Source: Sulfobacillus acidophilus DSM 10332 (GTDB lineage Bacteria; Bacillota; Sulfobacillia; Sulfobacillales; Sulfobacillaceae). From it: a stretch of DNA of 64,000 nucleotides. The DNA lies in assembly GCA_000237975.1 (NCBI GenBank), contig CP003179.1, positions 930,001-994,000 on the forward strand. The letters run 5' to 3'. Within the stretch, counting starts at the first letter, position 1. Every line of letters starts with the position of its first letter. Below the pieces are notes generated by a model. That model was not told where the DNA came from and made no database searches. It saw nothing but the letters and a program-made list of their open reading frames with translations. Position numbers and translations under genes: made by a program. Of the stretch, positions 51,522 through 58,211 are shown one piece after another.

Positions 51522-51964
51522 GAGGACCCTCCTTCCGGCCGTGCCTTGGCTCGAATGGCGTCCACCGTCGCATGAGGCAACGGCTGCCAATTAACCAAAG
51601 CGGCGGGCGCCTGATCACAACGGCCCAAACAGGGGGAGGGAATCACGTCCCCGATGGCCTCGTCTTTTAACCGCGCGATTAAGGTCTCGGAGCCCGCCAG
51701 TCGGCACATCACGTCGTCGCATACATGAATCCGCACGGGGGACGCCTCATCCCACCGAAAGAGTTGATAAAATGATGCCACGCCATAGACATCTGCCGCC
51801 GGAATGTTCATGACTTGGCTCAAGGCCAAAAGCCGAGATTCGGTTAAACAGCCGTCGTGCTCCATTAGCCGCCATAACGCCGGCAACAAATACGTCCGTT
51901 CAGGAGGCAGATCCGCCAACAAGGCTTGGACATCCGGGGTCGATGAGTTCTTTGGATCGGTCAT
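51518..51964 (-). CDS. formate dehydrogenase gamma subunit (NuoE/FdsG-like)
   Basis: The 148-residue thioredoxin-like protein has four [2Fe-2S] ligands in CDDVMC and CLGRC and the LALSQVMNIPAADVYGVASFYQLF helix region of NuoE. It overlaps both neighbours through ATGA junctions. It would join the FMN subunit to the iron-sulfur chain. Confidence 0.93.
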   Translation of the reverse strand: MTDPKNSSTPDVQALLADLPPERTYLLPALWRLMEHDGCLTESRLLALSQVMNIPAADVYGVASFYQLFRWDEASPVRIHVCDDVMCRLAGSETLIARLKDEAIGDVIPSPCLGRCDQAPAALVNWQPLPHATVDAIRAKARPEGGSS

Positions 51965-53874
51965 GACGATCCCTCCACACGTTCGATGCGGACCGCCGCC
52001 GCTTTAAATTCGGCGGTGCCTGATGCCGGATCCGCCGCATCGATGGATAAAATGTTGGTCCGGACATGCTCAGGAAAGTGAAACGATAGAAACACGGTCC
52101 CGGGATTTACGGTGGTCACCAACCGGACCGGCACGGTGATGGATCCCCGGCGGGAGGTGACCCGTACCGTTTCGCCGTCTTGGATGTGCAACCGCTCGCC
52201 ATCCCAAGGATGCATTTCCATCCATTCACCCGTTTTGTGCGGGTGGTCGTACACATTGGACTGCACTCCGGTATTGAAAAAGGCCAAACGGCGACCGGTG
52301 GTCAGCAAGAACGGATAGGCCGTATCGGGTTCTTCGACCGGGGGTTGCCATTCGACCGGGTTAAACGACACTTTGGGCTCGACCGGGTCGTCCCATAAGC
52401 GGGTATGCAGCGTCTTGGTGCCTGGGTGACCCGGTTCCGGGCAAGGCCACTGGATACCCTGGTGTTCTTTTAACGCCGAATAAGTCATCCCGCGAAAGTT
52501 GGGCGCTAATTGCCGCATTTCATCGAATACGGCTTCGGCGTCCTTAAGGGGCCAATCATAGCCCATGGCCCGGGCCAGTTGAGTAATAATCCAGATATCG
52601 TCTTGGGCCTCTCCGGGGGCTTGGCGGGCGGCGTTAACGCGTTGCACCCGTCGTTCGCTGTTGGTATAGGTCCCGGTACTCTCGGCAAAAGAGGCGCGGG
52701 CCGGCAGGACGACATCAGCCAGTTCGCCGGTGGCGGTGAGGAAAATGTCTTGGACCACAAGCGCGTCCAAGTCTTCGAACAAGTGCCGAACATGGTCGCT
52801 ATTGGCTTCCGATTCGATGGGGTTTTCCCCGATGACGTAGAGGCCTCGCAAGCGTCCGGCCGCCATCGCATCAAACATTTGCGTCTGATTAAGTCCCGGT
52901 TCAGGGTCTAGCGGTACCCCCCAAGCGTCTTCGAAACGCTGGCGAACCACCGGATCGCGAAGATCCTGAAAGCCCGGCAAACGATTGGGGAGCGCTCCCA
53001 TATCGCCGCCGCCTTGAACATTGTTTTGCCCTCTTAAAGGGTTCAATCCGGAGCCGTGACGGCCGACATGGCCGGTCAATAAGGCCAAATTGATCAACGA
53101 AAACACGTTGTCCACCGCGTTATGATGTTCGGTGATGCCGAGCGTCCAAGCAATCATGGCTCGCGGTGCTTTCGCATAGCGGTGGGCCAAGGCCACAATC
53201 CGCTCCGGGGCAATGCCGGTAATCGCGCTCGCTCGCTCCGGTGTCCAAGAGCGGACACTCTCCCTAAAATTCTCATATCCGACCGTGGCCCGGCGGACAA
53301 AATCTTGATGAACCAGGCCGTCACGGATAATCACATGGGCCATGGCGTTAAAAAGGGCGATATCGCTTCCCACACGAATTTGGACATGCTCATGGGCGCG
53401 CTTGGCCGTCAGCGTTTTTCGGGGATCGACGACGACTAATTCGGCGCCGTTACGGACCCCGCGCATCATATGGTGAAAAATAATCGGATGCGCTTCGGCG
53501 GCGTTGGAACCCACCAGCAAGATCATGCGGGTATGATGAAATTCTTCATAGGAACTGGTGCTGGCACCGGTCCCAAACACGGCTGCGAGACCCGCAACCG
53601 AAGGAGCGTGTCAGGTGCGGTTGCACGAGTCCACGTTATGCGTGCCGAACACCACCCGGGAAAACTTGGATGCCAGATAGTTCAGCTCATTGGTGGATTT
53701 GGAACAACTAAATACGCCGAGGGCGTTTCCGCCGTACGCGTTTTTCACGCCCTGAAATAACGCGGCCGCTTTGGTCAATGCCTCATCCCAGCCGGCCGGT
53801 CGCAATCGGCCGTTTTCGCGAATCAACGGCACGGTTAGCCGCTCCCGGCGGTTAACGGGTATGGTGGTAGCCAT
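51961..53874 (-). CDS. selenocysteine-containing formate dehydrogenase catalytic subunit (lacks N-terminal FeS part)
   Basis: The 637-residue product is read through an in-frame TGA at 53613-53611 as selenocysteine (residue 88) in the context [14 protein letters not shown], the FDH active-site motif. Both halves are in the same frame, and downstream sequence carries the Mo/W-bis-PGD domain ([35 protein letters not shown]) and the C-terminal MopB domain. The N-terminal Fe4S4 domain of the family is absent and sits in the gene at 49468. ATG 53874 has AGGAGG 8 nt upstream. It is the first gene of a four-gene operon. Confidence 0.93.
53580..53613 (-). promoter_or_regulatory. bacterial SECIS element of the formate dehydrogenase gene
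   Basis: The UGA (53613-53611) is followed after 10 nt by an 8-bp stem, CGGTTGCG (53600-53593) with CGCAGCCG (53587-53580), and the apical loop GGTCT. The position and loop match the E. coli fdhF SECIS, whose loop is read by SelB. This is direct evidence that the UGA is decoded as selenocysteine rather than being a nonsense mutation. Confidence 0.92.
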
Positions 53875-53994
53875 GAACGACACCTCCTATAAAACCCTTG
53901 AGCTTTCCAACCTATCGAAATGCTGTTTCAAGAGCTAAACGCTCTAGGGACATTTTAGCACCAAAAACCACATCGGTTGGCGCAAGAAGAGCGT

Positions 53995-54025
53995 AAAGGC
54001 TCCGAGAAGGATCCCCGGAGCCTTT
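53995..54025 (-). terminator. terminator of tauE
   Basis: AAAGGCTCC and GGAGCCTTT form a 9-bp stem with a 13-nt loop. The distal arm overlaps the tauE stop codon. A short T stretch follows on the minus strand. Confidence 0.65.
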
Positions 54026-54857
54026 AAGGATGGAGGTGAAGTACACTGAGATTTTTGTCGATCATATAGAGTGCCATGAGGAAAATGACGCCGGCGAAGA
54101 GATAATTGAGTAACGATTTCTGGCGACTCAAACGGGTGGCCAAAAGAGCCCCGCCCAGTCCTCCAAGAATCCCGCCTAAGATAAATTCTCCGGCCAGAGC
54201 GGCACTGACCCATCCGGATAAGGCATAGTTTACGGCGGTGGTGAGGCCAAAGGTGCCCACCGCAAAGAGCGAACTGCCAATCGCTTGAATAATGCTCATG
54301 CCGGTGGAAAAAATAAGCCCGGGTACGATTAAAAATCCGCCGCCGATCCCAAAAAACCCCGAGAGGGCACCCACTGCAAATCCGGTTACGGCCACCGGCA
54401 GGACCCGTTTTTTCAGCGGAACTTCGGCCACGTGGGCGGCACTAGTGGCTTCGACGGTTTCCAGAACCATTTGACGGGTTTGATTCGCTCGCTCGCGACG
54501 GATCATGAGACCGGCGACCACAAACATGAGAATCGCGAACAAAAACAGGAGGTCCTTGCCATTAACCAATTTCCCCAAATCGGAGCCGATAATCGCCCCG
54601 AGAACACCGGGAATGGCAAACAATATAGCCGGACCCCATCGGACGTGGCCTTGTCGCCAGTGGGGAATCAAGTTGAAATAGGCGTTCAGGGAAACGGCCA
54701 GGGCCGAGGTGCCAATGACTTCGTGGGCGTCCTTGACTCCGACGAAGTACATCAACAGAGGGACCGCCAGAATACTGCCGCCACCGCCTAAAAGGCCGAG
54801 ACTGAATCCCACAATGGCCCCCGATATTAAGGTTAGGATAATTTGATGGCCGGGCAT
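54024..54857 (-). CDS. TauE/SafE-family sulfite/anion exporter
   Basis: The 277-residue protein has about eight membrane helices and the paired motifs GFSLGLLGGGGSILAVPLL and GALSGFFGIGGGFLIVP that define the family. Members export sulfite, sulfoacetate or other sulfur anions. It is divergent from a tandem rhodanese, and both promoters share an operator-like dyad. This supports a role in handling sulfite or persulfide by-products, as in cst operons. Confidence 0.9.
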   Translation of the reverse strand: MPGHQIILTLISGAIVGFSLGLLGGGGSILAVPLLMYFVGVKDAHEVIGTSALAVSLNAYFNLIPHWRQGHVRWGPAILFAIPGVLGAIIGSDLGKLVNGKDLLFLFAILMFVVAGLMIRRERANQTRQMVLETVEATSAAHVAEVPLKKRVLPVAVTGFAVGALSGFFGIGGGFLIVPGLIFSTGMSIIQAIGSSLFAVGTFGLTTAVNYALSGWVSAALAGEFILGGILGGLGGALLATRLSRQKSLLNYLFAGVIFLMALYMIDKNLSVLHLHP

Positions 54858-54896: not shown

Positions 54897-54925
54897 AATA
54901 TATACCACGTTGGGTATGTTCTAAA
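54897..54925 (-). promoter_or_regulatory. tauE promoter with CstR-like operator
   Basis: On the minus strand TTTAGA (54925-54920) and TATATT (54902-54897) are 17 nt apart. The dyad ATACC-ACGTTG-GGTAT (54902-54917) fills the spacer. A repressor bound there would exclude RNA polymerase. The same dyad occurs at 55051-55066. Confidence 0.65.
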
Positions 54926-55023
54926 CATGGGATATATCTGGGGGTTTCCGTGAAGGGGGGTATTACAAAATACGATGGAAGCATTGTTATTAAATGAAAA
55001 ATCACTAGAACAATGTTTGCCCC

Positions 55024-55052
55024 TTGCGATGGTAAATGGTAAAGTGTAAAAT
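55024..55052 (+). promoter_or_regulatory. promoter of the tandem rhodanese gene
   Basis: TTGCGA (55024-55029) and TAAAAT (55047-55052) are separated by 17 nt. The -10 box abuts the operator-like dyad at 55051-55066. Confidence 0.65.
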
Positions 55053-55066
55053 ACCCAGTAAGGTAT
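55051..55066. promoter_or_regulatory. CstR/CsoR-like operator before the rhodanese gene
   Basis: ATACC-CAGTAA-GGTAT has the same half-sites and 6-nt spacing as the dyad in the tauE promoter. ATACC/GGTAT half-sites are those of CsoR-family repressors, including the persulfide sensor CstR. It overlaps the -10 region and start site. No CsoR/CstR gene lies in the window. Confidence 0.6.
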
Positions 55067-55094: not shown

Positions 55095-55715
55095 ATGGAG
55101 GCTCAAGAAATTTGGAACGCAGTATCCCAAGGTGAGGCAATTGTCTTGGACGTCCGGCCTCCCATGGCATTCAGCCAGGGTCATGTACCGCAGGCCGTTA
55201 ATGCGCCCTTCCAACGGGGTGCTTGGGGCCCGGCCGTTAAGCGGTGGCTGGCGGGTCAATCTCCTCGGCTGGTCTTGTTTGGCGACAACGCCATGATTGT
55301 CGAGGCGGCCGCGAAGGCGTTGGAACAAGAGCAACTGACGGTGTGGGCGCGGTGGACCGAGGGAATTGATGCCTGGCGTCAAGCAAATTTGCCGGTGGTG
55401 GAAGTCCACCAAATTACCGTGGATGCCTTGCACCAAGAACGTGATCAATGGGTTGTGATTGATGTCCGAGAACCGTATGAATTGCGTTCGGGCATGATTC
55501 CCAACGCGATGCATATTCCGCTGGACAGTTTGCCGCAACATGTGGAGAAGCTGGATCAAAACCAGCGCTATGCGGTGGTTTGTGCGCACGGGAGCCGGAG
55601 CCAAGCGGCAGCGGCATTTTTGGCCGATAAAGGGTTTCAGGTTGGCACGGTGGTCGGAGGCATGGCCCTTTGGTTAGGGGCCGGATATCCCACCATGCAA
55701 CCCTCGCACCGGTAA
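55095..55715 (+). CDS. tandem-domain rhodanese (sulfurtransferase)
   Basis: The 206-residue protein has two rhodanese domains. The first (residues 1-100) lacks the active Cys (LFGDNAM in its place). The second (about 103-200) has DVREPYELRSGMIPNAMHIPL and the active loop CAHGSRS with Cys163. It would carry persulfide sulfur. AGGAGGAG precedes the ATG. It stands alone, divergent from tauE, with its own terminator. Confidence 0.92.
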   Translation: MEAQEIWNAVSQGEAIVLDVRPPMAFSQGHVPQAVNAPFQRGAWGPAVKRWLAGQSPRLVLFGDNAMIVEAAAKALEQEQLTVWARWTEGIDAWRQANLPVVEVHQITVDALHQERDQWVVIDVREPYELRSGMIPNAMHIPLDSLPQHVEKLDQNQRYAVVCAHGSRSQAAAAFLADKGFQVGTVVGGMALWLGAGYPTMQPSHR

Positions 55716-55738: not shown

Positions 55739-55768
55739 ACCGGCCGGAGCCTTTCGGCCGGTTTTTTT
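55739..55768 (+). terminator. terminator of the rhodanese gene
   Basis: ACCGGCCG and CGGCCGGT form an 8-bp stem with an 8-nt loop followed by seven T residues, 24 nt after the stop codon. The end of the converging ATPase gene overlaps the T-run. Confidence 0.9.
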
Positions 55769-58211
55769 AAACGCCCCACCAAGCCAAGGCAAACAAGACG
55801 GCCGTGACCGCGCCGACCAGGGCAGCGCCCCAAGCATAACGTTTCGGGGACCAACCCAATATTCGGAGCGAGTTTCCCAGCACAAAGGTGCTGGAGAGGA
55901 CCATAGCCGCGGCCGCAATCAAAGGGCTGGTCCATCCGAGGGCCGCCGCCGGTAATGCCAAAACGTTATAGAGAAAAGCCCAGCCTAGGTTTTGACGAAT
56001 AATCCGCACGGCCTGCCGACCGGTGTGAAACGCGGTCACCAACGGTTCTAATTGGGGGCGTGTCAGGGTCAGCTGTCCGGATTCGATGGCCAAATCGGCG
56101 CCTTGGCCCATGGCAATGCCCAGATCGGCGGTGACCAAGGCGGGAGAGTCGTTAATCCCGTCTCCTACGAAAGCCACCCGGTGGCCGGCCGCTTGCTCCT
56201 GCCGAATCCAATCGGCTTTCTCCAACGGTTTCACTTGGGCCTGCCAGTGGCTAATGCCTAAAGTATCGGCCAGACGTTGGGCCGCGAGCGGGTGATCACC
56301 GGACAGCATCGCCAATCGGTATCCGGCCGCTTTCAGCTGATGGATTGTCGTGACGGCATCGGCGCGCACGGGATCTCGCAAAAGAATGGCGCCCATCACC
56401 GTGTCGTCGCGGGTGACGATGCTAACGGTGCCGCCGGATGCACGCCATTCGGCGACGATGGGTTCTAACGGAGGCGGTAGGGGCCGATCATGTCCTGCAT
56501 CGACCGAGACCCGGTGCGATCCGATGCGCGCGGTGACCCCAAACCCCGGCGTGGTGACGAATGCTTCTCCGGGGTAAAGGGGCAGATGACGGGCTTCGGC
56601 GGCTCGGACGATGGCCTGGGCTATCGGGTGTTCGGAACCGACCTCGACCGAAGCGGCCCAGGGTAAAACCGTGTCGGCGTTAGGCCACACGGATTCGACG
56701 GTCATCTGACCTTCGGTCAAGGTGCCCGTTTTGTCCAGCACAATGGTGTCAATGGCGGCCAAGCGTTCCAGTCCGTCCGCGCTGCGTACCAAAATGCCCC
56801 ATTGGGCTAATCGCTGGACACCCGCCATAATTGCCAGGGGAGTCGCTACACTGAGCGCACAAGGACAGGCAATCACAAAAACCGCAACCATTCGGAGGAG
56901 AGCGGCGGGCCAGGCCTCGCCGATGGCCCAGTGGGTGAGGACTAGCGTGAGTACGCCGAATCCCAGCACGACCGGTACGAAAATCCGCAAGATCCGTTCC
57001 GCTAACGTTTGCCAGGGACCGCGGGCTTCATTGGCTTGTCGAACATACCGGGCGATTTGGGCCACCAGCGACTCGTCGCCTGCCCGGTCGACGAGAACAA
57101 CTAAACGGCCGGTATGGTTCATCGTGCCGGTATAGACCCGATCGTCCGGACCTTTTTCGACCGGGAGCGATTCACCGGTCAAAATGGATTCGTCGATGGT
57201 CGAACGGCCCTCCACCACAACCCCGTCGGCGCCGATCCGCTCGCCCGGCAGTACCACGATTTTGTCTCCGGCCGCCACCTGCTCAATGGGAACCAGTCGA
57301 ATCTGACCGTCCGCGTCTAACCGTCGAACCTGTCGCACCATCATACGGGACAGCAAGCGGACGATGCTTCCGGCTCGCGTTTTCGTGGCAGACTCCAATA
57401 CACGGCTTAGTAAAAGAAACGTGACCAACATCGCGGCCGTGTCAAAATAGAGATATTTGCCTCCGGTCAAGAGGGTGACCCAGCTATATCCGTAGGCCGA
57501 CAAGGTACCGATAGCGATTAATAAATCCATCGTGGGGTAGAGGTGCCGGATTGACGCCCAGGCGCCGCGGAGAAAGGGCCAACCGCCCCAGAAGACGACT
57601 GGGGTGGCTAACAACATCAGTCCGTAACCTAATACGGTATGAAATACGGGCGGTAAAGCGGGCAAATAGCCCGACCAAACGGGCACGCTAAACATCATGA
57701 CAAACATCGAGAGCACCAGCGACACGCCGAAGCGGGTCAACAAGTCCCGTTCTTTGCCGTCTTCCGGTTGGGTGCTGCCGTGTTCCTTGACCCCGTAGCC
57801 CAGTTTGCGGACACTGGTCCGAATCGCCTCGGCGTCTACTTGGGATCGATCAATCGCCACGCTGGCGGTACTGGTGGCGTAGTCGATCTGAACCCCTAAA
57901 ACCCCTGGTGATCGCGCCAGGACCTGTTCAATCAAAAGAGCGCACGAGGCGCACCACATCCCCTCGATGTCGAGCGCGAGCGATTCGGGCTGAGCGCTGC
58001 CGAAGCTGATAGCCGGTGTGGGGGTGGTCCGACTGATTTGCTGTTTCAGTTCTTCCCAATCCACCCCGGGTCGGCTCTTCAGGTCTTTTAATTCGTCTTC
58101 GCCAATAATTCGCCAGAGTTCGCGACAGGCATGACAACAAAACGTGTGACCGTCCGCCGGGACGGGAGTGACAATGGGTTGGTCGCAAAAATCACAGGTT
58201 AAAACAGCCAT
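55767..58211 (-). CDS. CcoI/CopA-type copper-translocating P1B-ATPase
   Basis: The 814-residue pump starts with a Cys-rich segment (CDFCDQP, then CCHACRELW) seen in FixI/CcoI oxidase-assembly ATPases. An HMA domain with GMWCASC follows near residue 85, then about eight helices with the CPC metal site. The P-domain has DKTGTLT, the N-domain SEHP and the hinge GDGINDSPAL. CcoI-type pumps supply copper to cbb3-type oxidases, while CopA-type pumps detoxify copper. The N-terminus and neighbours favour the former. It overlaps the DsbD_2-type gene by 13 bp. Confidence 0.9.
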   Translation of the reverse strand: MAVLTCDFCDQPIVTPVPADGHTFCCHACRELWRIIGEDELKDLKSRPGVDWEELKQQISRTTPTPAISFGSAQPESLALDIEGMWCASCALLIEQVLARSPGVLGVQIDYATSTASVAIDRSQVDAEAIRTSVRKLGYGVKEHGSTQPEDGKERDLLTRFGVSLVLSMFVMMFSVPVWSGYLPALPPVFHTVLGYGLMLLATPVVFWGGWPFLRGAWASIRHLYPTMDLLIAIGTLSAYGYSWVTLLTGGKYLYFDTAAMLVTFLLLSRVLESATKTRAGSIVRLLSRMMVRQVRRLDADGQIRLVPIEQVAAGDKIVVLPGERIGADGVVVEGRSTIDESILTGESLPVEKGPDDRVYTGTMNHTGRLVVLVDRAGDESLVAQIARYVRQANEARGPWQTLAERILRIFVPVVLGFGVLTLVLTHWAIGEAWPAALLRMVAVFVIACPCALSVATPLAIMAGVQRLAQWGILVRSADGLERLAAIDTIVLDKTGTLTEGQMTVESVWPNADTVLPWAASVEVGSEHPIAQAIVRAAEARHLPLYPGEAFVTTPGFGVTARIGSHRVSVDAGHDRPLPPPLEPIVAEWRASGGTVSIVTRDDTVMGAILLRDPVRADAVTTIHQLKAAGYRLAMLSGDHPLAAQRLADTLGISHWQAQVKPLEKADWIRQEQAAGHRVAFVGDGINDSPALVTADLGIAMGQGADLAIESGQLTLTRPQLEPLVTAFHTGRQAVRIIRQNLGWAFLYNVLALPAAALGWTSPLIAAAAMVLSSTFVLGNSLRILGWSPKRYAWGAALVGAVTAVLFALAWWGV

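Follow-up and report, generated by a model that had tools for sequence, protein, structure and literature searches.

A tauE-type exporter gene and a tandem-domain rhodanese gene are divergently arranged in Sulfobacillus acidophilus DSM 10332, and the region between them carries the same inverted repeat twice, which raises the question of which protein would read this repeat and in response to what signal. The locus is part of the window, that is, the whole 64-kb stretch analysed (chromosome 930001-994000), in a genome of two replicons (3,472,898 and 84,933 bp) with a coding share of 87.3% (DSM 10332 = NAL(T); PMC3558970). Sequence comparison indicates that the two dyads are very probably operators of a CstR-like repressor of the CsoR family, most likely the distant protein designated here as CstR-A.

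Two identical dyads in one divergon

The earlier note had described two dyads with the same half-sites and spacing in this divergon, and both were recovered as exact 16-bp matches of ATACC-N6-GGTAT (Table 1), each reading TAC-X8-GTA. Two exact matches in the window compare with a mean of 0.01 expected from 100 dinucleotide-preserving shuffles, none of which reached two. The placement that it had claimed is also the geometry given by the consensus scan: the 17-bp spacer of the predicted tauE promoter is taken up by dyad 1, and dyad 2 begins within the predicted rhodanese -10 and extends toward +1. Since each promoter scores 9/12 against the consensus, a level at which about 1.1 sites per kb arise by chance, both are to be regarded as predicted.

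Elsewhere in the window (51961-53883, minus strand), a formate dehydrogenase alpha-subunit-like gene has one TGA codon in frame (CNRT[TGA]HAPSVAG) and reads as a selenocysteine enzyme; the genome holds a tRNA-Sec match of 73 bits (cut-off 47).

Table 1. Features of the tauE/rhodanese divergon, exact dyads of the genome and CsoR-family genes
Feature	Position	Strand	Basis or context
tauE-type sulfite/sulfonate exporter gene, 277 aa	window 54024-54857	-	PF01925, 4.7e-48; orthologues within the family
Predicted tauE promoter	window 54897-54925	-	-35 TTTAGA, 17-bp spacer, -10 TATATT; consensus scan 9/12
Dyad 1, ATACCACGTTGGGTAT	window 54902-54917	.	exact ATACC-N6-GGTAT; predicted CstR-type operator, tauE promoter -35/-10 spacer
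Predicted rhodanese promoter	window 55024-55052	+	-35 TTGCGA, 17 bp, -10 TAAAAT; consensus scan 9/12
Dyad 2, ATACCCAGTAAGGTAT	window 55051-55066	.	exact ATACC-N6-GGTAT; predicted CstR-type operator, rhodanese promoter -10/start region
Tandem-domain rhodanese gene, 206 aa	window 55095-55715	+	PF00581, 3.5e-27, two stretches; orthologues in relatives' PDO operons
Predicted terminator-like hairpin and T run, 3' of rhodanese gene	window 55739-55762	+	scan
P-type ATPase gene with metal-binding CxxC motifs	window 55767-58211	-	ends near rhodanese gene
Dyad	chromosome 127675		rhodanese, DsrE
Dyad	chromosome 386643		sulfur oxygenase reductase (SOR; PF07682, 7e-160)
Dyad	chromosome 840556		aldolase-II-like gene, hemY; weakest of the 11
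Dyads 1 and 2	chromosome 984902, 985051		tauE/rhodanese
Dyad	chromosome 1428129		SQR-like flavoprotein
Dyad	chromosome 1557942		between the CsoR-family gene CstR-A and a DUF302-glutaredoxin-metallo-beta-lactamase (PDO-like) operon
Dyad	chromosome 2511353		DsrE, SQR-like
Dyad	chromosome 3140844		protoglobin-MCP, then GGDEF/EAL gene
Dyad	chromosome 3307433		tandem rhodanese
Dyad	plasmid 36157		NiFe hydrogenase
CstR-A gene, 93 aa	chromosome 1558025-1558306		about 573 kb from the divergon; Cys0/Cys+24; PF02583, 2.5e-18, over gathering score
CstR-B gene	chromosome 1361840-1362133		beside dsrE2-sHdr operon; Cys0/Cys+24, without metal-ligand His
Copper-type CsoR gene	1278814-1279173		Cys, His+25, Cys+29; heavy-metal P-type ATPase gene downstream

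The dyad across the genome

A genome search for further sites, proposed together with the original observation, returned 11 exact matches of ATACC-N6-GGTAT on chromosome and plasmid, against none for the reversed control pattern. None of the 11 lies within the open reading frames kept by a rough ORF caller, and sulfur genes adjoin most of them. Across the Sulfobacillaceae (121 Mb), 194 exact dyads were counted against 80 for the reversed control; this reversed-pattern rate of 0.66/Mb would yield about two sites per genome by chance, so that one or two among the 11 may be fortuitous.

The gene content of the divergon had been likened to that of cst regulons. In agreement with this, Pfam matches to TauE, rhodanese, persulfide dioxygenase (PDO) and SQR proteins were found beside the 11 sites and at the conserved loci of relatives, the PDO and SQR names denoting superfamily matches read together with their context. 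On the 85-kb plasmid, the dyad lies upstream of the genes for the small and large subunits of a NiFe hydrogenase, meaning that the regulon may span two replicons. At chromosome 3140844-3145160 the dyad precedes the protoglobin-MCP gene, after which comes a PAS-GGDEF-EAL gene that matches protoglobin weakly; taxis and cyclic-di-GMP may in this way be coupled to sulfur sensing. The SOR dyad was rejected as a family-wide feature, as none of six SOR genes in four relatives carries it.

CsoR-family regulators in the genome

It had been stated that no CstR gene is local and that a distant CsoR-family protein would act at the dyads. The genome does encode three PF02583 (CsoR/RcnR) proteins, two of them devoid of the metal-ligand histidine, and no CsoR-family gene was found in the 64-kb window, all three lying outside it. 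The CstR-A promoter holds an exact dyad and that of CstR-B has none.

In CstR-A, which has relatives with solved structures, the metal-ligand histidine at +25 is replaced by serine and position +29 is alanine, the cysteines being residues 39 and 63, that is, 24 residues apart and not the canonical 29. The +24 pattern holds across the whole CstR-A/CstR-B clade, and every member of the Cys+24 clade in the family lacks the His+25/Cys+29 pattern. A gapless alignment with the S. pneumoniae CstR (7MQ1) places alanine opposite the second cysteine of the latter, whereas the second cysteine of CstR-A comes five residues earlier, so the sulfur chemistry of CstR-A may differ in detail. Owing to this +24 position, CstR-A is filed as a CstR-like variant and not as a canonical CstR. 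The notion of a distant CstR-type regulator is therefore upheld in that a CstR-like protein with the dyad in its own promoter exists, and has to be amended in that this protein is no canonical CstR.

As a separate observation, genes of the CstR-B clade are mostly the second of a small operon that additionally encodes a conserved protein some 115 aa in length.

Association of the dyad with regulator type

The family sample comprised the PF02583 genes of 34 Sulfobacillaceae genomes from 11 genera, with 49 Cys+24 rows representing 47 distinct genes (one contig had been fetched twice) and 49 genes of the metal pattern; the two groups parted in the tree with a support of 100/100. An exact dyad occurred upstream (within about 400 bp) of 23 of the 47 CstR-like genes and of none of the 49 metal-type genes (Fisher p = 8e-9), and upstream of the latter no N6 dyad was found with one mismatch allowed. 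The N6-spaced TAC/GTA inverted repeat, used as the test for an operator, was thus present at CstR-like genes and absent from metal-type genes.

The distribution within the Cys+24 clade is informative on whether CstR-B, alone or with CstR-A, acts at the dyads. The two proteins share their clade and their cysteine pair, and the CstR-B gene adjoins a sulfur-oxidation operon; CstR-B could thus use the sites jointly with CstR-A or in competition with it. However, the dyad lies upstream of 23/33 CstR-A-type genes and 0/14 CstR-B-type genes, and in strain TPY of S. acidophilus the adjoining sHdr operon, dyad-free in DSM 10332, changes in the opposite direction to sor (PMC5114278). A role of CstR-B at the dyads is accordingly considered unlikely, and it was rejected as owner of the motif given that the regions upstream of the 14 CstR-B-type genes showed neither a dyad, at spacings 2 to 11, nor any other common palindrome.

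The comparison outside the family covered 92 classifiable genes for CsoR-family proteins, drawn from other families and phyla. TACC-N6-GGTA was present upstream of 13 of the 26 genes without the His+25/Cys+29 pattern (7/15 with Cys+29 and no histidine, 6/11 with Cys+24) and of none of the 66 that have it, while 37 of these 66 metal-type genes are preceded by an N7 dyad, which equals the TAC-X9-GTA operator of copper CsoR (PMC3902906); this sample is non-random, the searches having been seeded with CstR-A-like sequences, and the N6/N7 split is sharp nonetheless. Such a pattern suggests a rule whereby N6 would serve CstR-like sensors and N7 metal-type CsoR proteins. It also lends support to the reading of the dyads as putative CstR-type operators, the N6 form tracking CstR-like and not metal-sensor genes.

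At five loci in further families of this phylum, N6 dyads also accompany Cys+24 CsoR-family proteins, and three of these proteins keep His+25; the Cys+24 variant is therefore not confined to the Sulfobacillaceae.

Should the association with CstR be incidental, the dyads could be bound by an unrelated sulfur-responsive regulator, either of the ArsR type (BigR/SqrR/SoxR) or from another family, as similar genes are under other families in proteobacteria. This is very improbable, because upstream of the dyad-bearing CstR-A genes the dyad (23/23, by selection) is far ahead of the next palindrome (7) and of shuffles (at most 3), and because outside the family, too, it goes with CstR-like genes. 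Scarcely credible is the proposal that the dyads are copper operators of the copper-type CsoR, tied to the copper-type P-type ATPase gene that ends near the rhodanese gene. Copper CsoR operators do have the same layout of TAC/GTA and G tracts (PMC3902906), but both dyads are TAC-X8-GTA and not the type 2 TAC-X9-GTA, metal-type genes have N7 elsewhere and never N6, those of the family have no N6 dyad, also when one mismatch is allowed, and the ATPase gene is convergent with the rhodanese gene and stands behind neither promoter. The N6 spacing together with the gene association led to rejection of copper CsoR as the binder.

Conservation at related loci

Conservation of the dyads in related species, on which the original proposal had been made to depend, was found at the rhodanese loci of relatives, 26/29 of which carry an exact dyad, against 0.064 expected. 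It usually immediately precedes an operon that encodes PDO-like, rhodanese and thioredoxin-like proteins, placed between this operon and a divergent CstR-like gene at L071, L073, L075, L076 and L077, or between it and a divergent tauE at L072 and L074. Given this conservation and the CstR-like genes local to several relatives' loci, the divergon in the window is a version of a conserved locus, with its regulator gene placed elsewhere. Other close TauE orthologues have an upstream dyad in 9/19 cases, the remaining 10/19 having none within 450 bp. When one dyad was sampled per relative, 15/29 adjoined proteins of the same set, including the DsrE-SQR pair as in S. acidophilus. In two relatives, two N6 dyads precede tauE with starts 14 bp apart and an overlap of two bases, an arrangement suggesting that binding may be cooperative.

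That both palindromes arose by chance and lack a function is hardly tenable, for despite the family background of exact matches (80 for the reversed pattern) the window has two against 0.01 expected and the dyad recurs at the relatives' rhodanese loci.

Proposed mechanism and expression data

In the model favoured here, a reduced CstR-A tetramer would sit on each dyad and block RNA polymerase, through the promoter spacer in the case of tauE and the -10/+1 region in that of the rhodanese gene. Rising per- and polysulfides would then join Cys39 and Cys63 of CstR-A through sulfur bridges, and the bridged protein would leave the DNA, relieving repression. The consequent induction of tauE, the rhodanese gene and other targets would allow sulfur to be moved, oxidised and exported.

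On elemental sulfur, as compared with ferrous sulfate, S. acidophilus TPY expressed sor about 10-fold and the rhodanese TPY_0110 about 17-fold more strongly (PMC5114278). By the gene order rhodanese, DsrE, LysR, SoeA, TPY_0110 would be the dyad-bearing rhodanese at 127691. The values agree with an induction by sulfur and say nothing about the regulator. TPY_1113, 4.8-fold higher on sulfur, is perhaps the rhodanese of the window and was kept out of the evidence.

Implications

To judge from the sequences, the operator and the gene set are of the CstR kind. What is new is the second cysteine of the regulator at +24 instead of +29 and a predicted regulon that reaches SOR, a NiFe hydrogenase and a chemoreceptor of the globin type; the literature on CsoR-family persulfide sensors may already mention the Cys+24 clade. 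A broader and more tentative idea, which we regard as possible although short of probable, is that thermoacidophilic sulfur oxidisers control a dispersed regulon of energy metabolism through a distinct CsoR-family clade with Cys-X23-Cys in place of Cys-X28-Cys, sulfane sulfur being read as a sign of fuel in addition to being a poison. If so, sulfane sulfur would switch on SOR, persulfide oxidation, rhodaneses, sulfite export, NiFe hydrogenase and the globin chemoreceptor; no description of sulfur-fuel sensing by Gram-positive bioleaching bacteria was found in the literature searched. A regulator has been named, an operator defined exactly and 11 promoters proposed as candidate targets, each of which can be tested directly, and a sensor clade with another cysteine geometry offers a test of how the CsoR scaffold detects persulfide.

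Comparison with known systems

The nearest systems are CstR of S. aureus with its cst operon (tauE, cstA, cstB, sqr), CstR of S. pneumoniae (PDB 7MQ1-7MQ3) and YrkD of B. licheniformis. Like CstR and YrkD, CstR-A is a CsoR-family protein that lacks the metal-ligand histidine and has a cysteine pair available for sulfur sensing, and the targets shared with CstR systems are TauE, rhodanese/sulfurtransferase, persulfide dioxygenase and SQR (PMC5480029, PMC9774590, PMC9918477). The differences concern the second cysteine, at +29 in S. aureus CstR (Cys31/Cys60), the position of the CstR-A gene, which unlike those of known CstR systems is unlinked to the tauE/rhodanese divergon, and the extent of the predicted regulon, dispersed over 11 sites that include SOR, hydrogenase and chemoreceptor genes, whereas in S. 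aureus a single operon is likely under the direct control of CstR (PMC5480029).

The system proposed here also resembles that of TTHA1953 from the thermophile Thermus thermophilus HB8, a CsoR-family member that represses a dispersed regulon for sulfur oxidation and likewise has TAC/GTA half-sites (PMC10318464). Its consensus is TACNNTACNNNNGTANNGTA, compared with ATACC-N6-GGTAT in S. acidophilus, and it has cysteines C39/C68 (+29) and Sox targets, while the S. acidophilus targets include SOR, PDO-like and rhodanese genes. Finally, the type 2 operator of the Streptomyces lividans copper CsoR also has C and G tracts enclosed by an inverted TAC/GTA repeat (PMC3902906), but with TAC-X9-GTA in place of the TAC-X8-GTA seen here, a difference of one base that parts metal-type from CstR-like genes in the sample.
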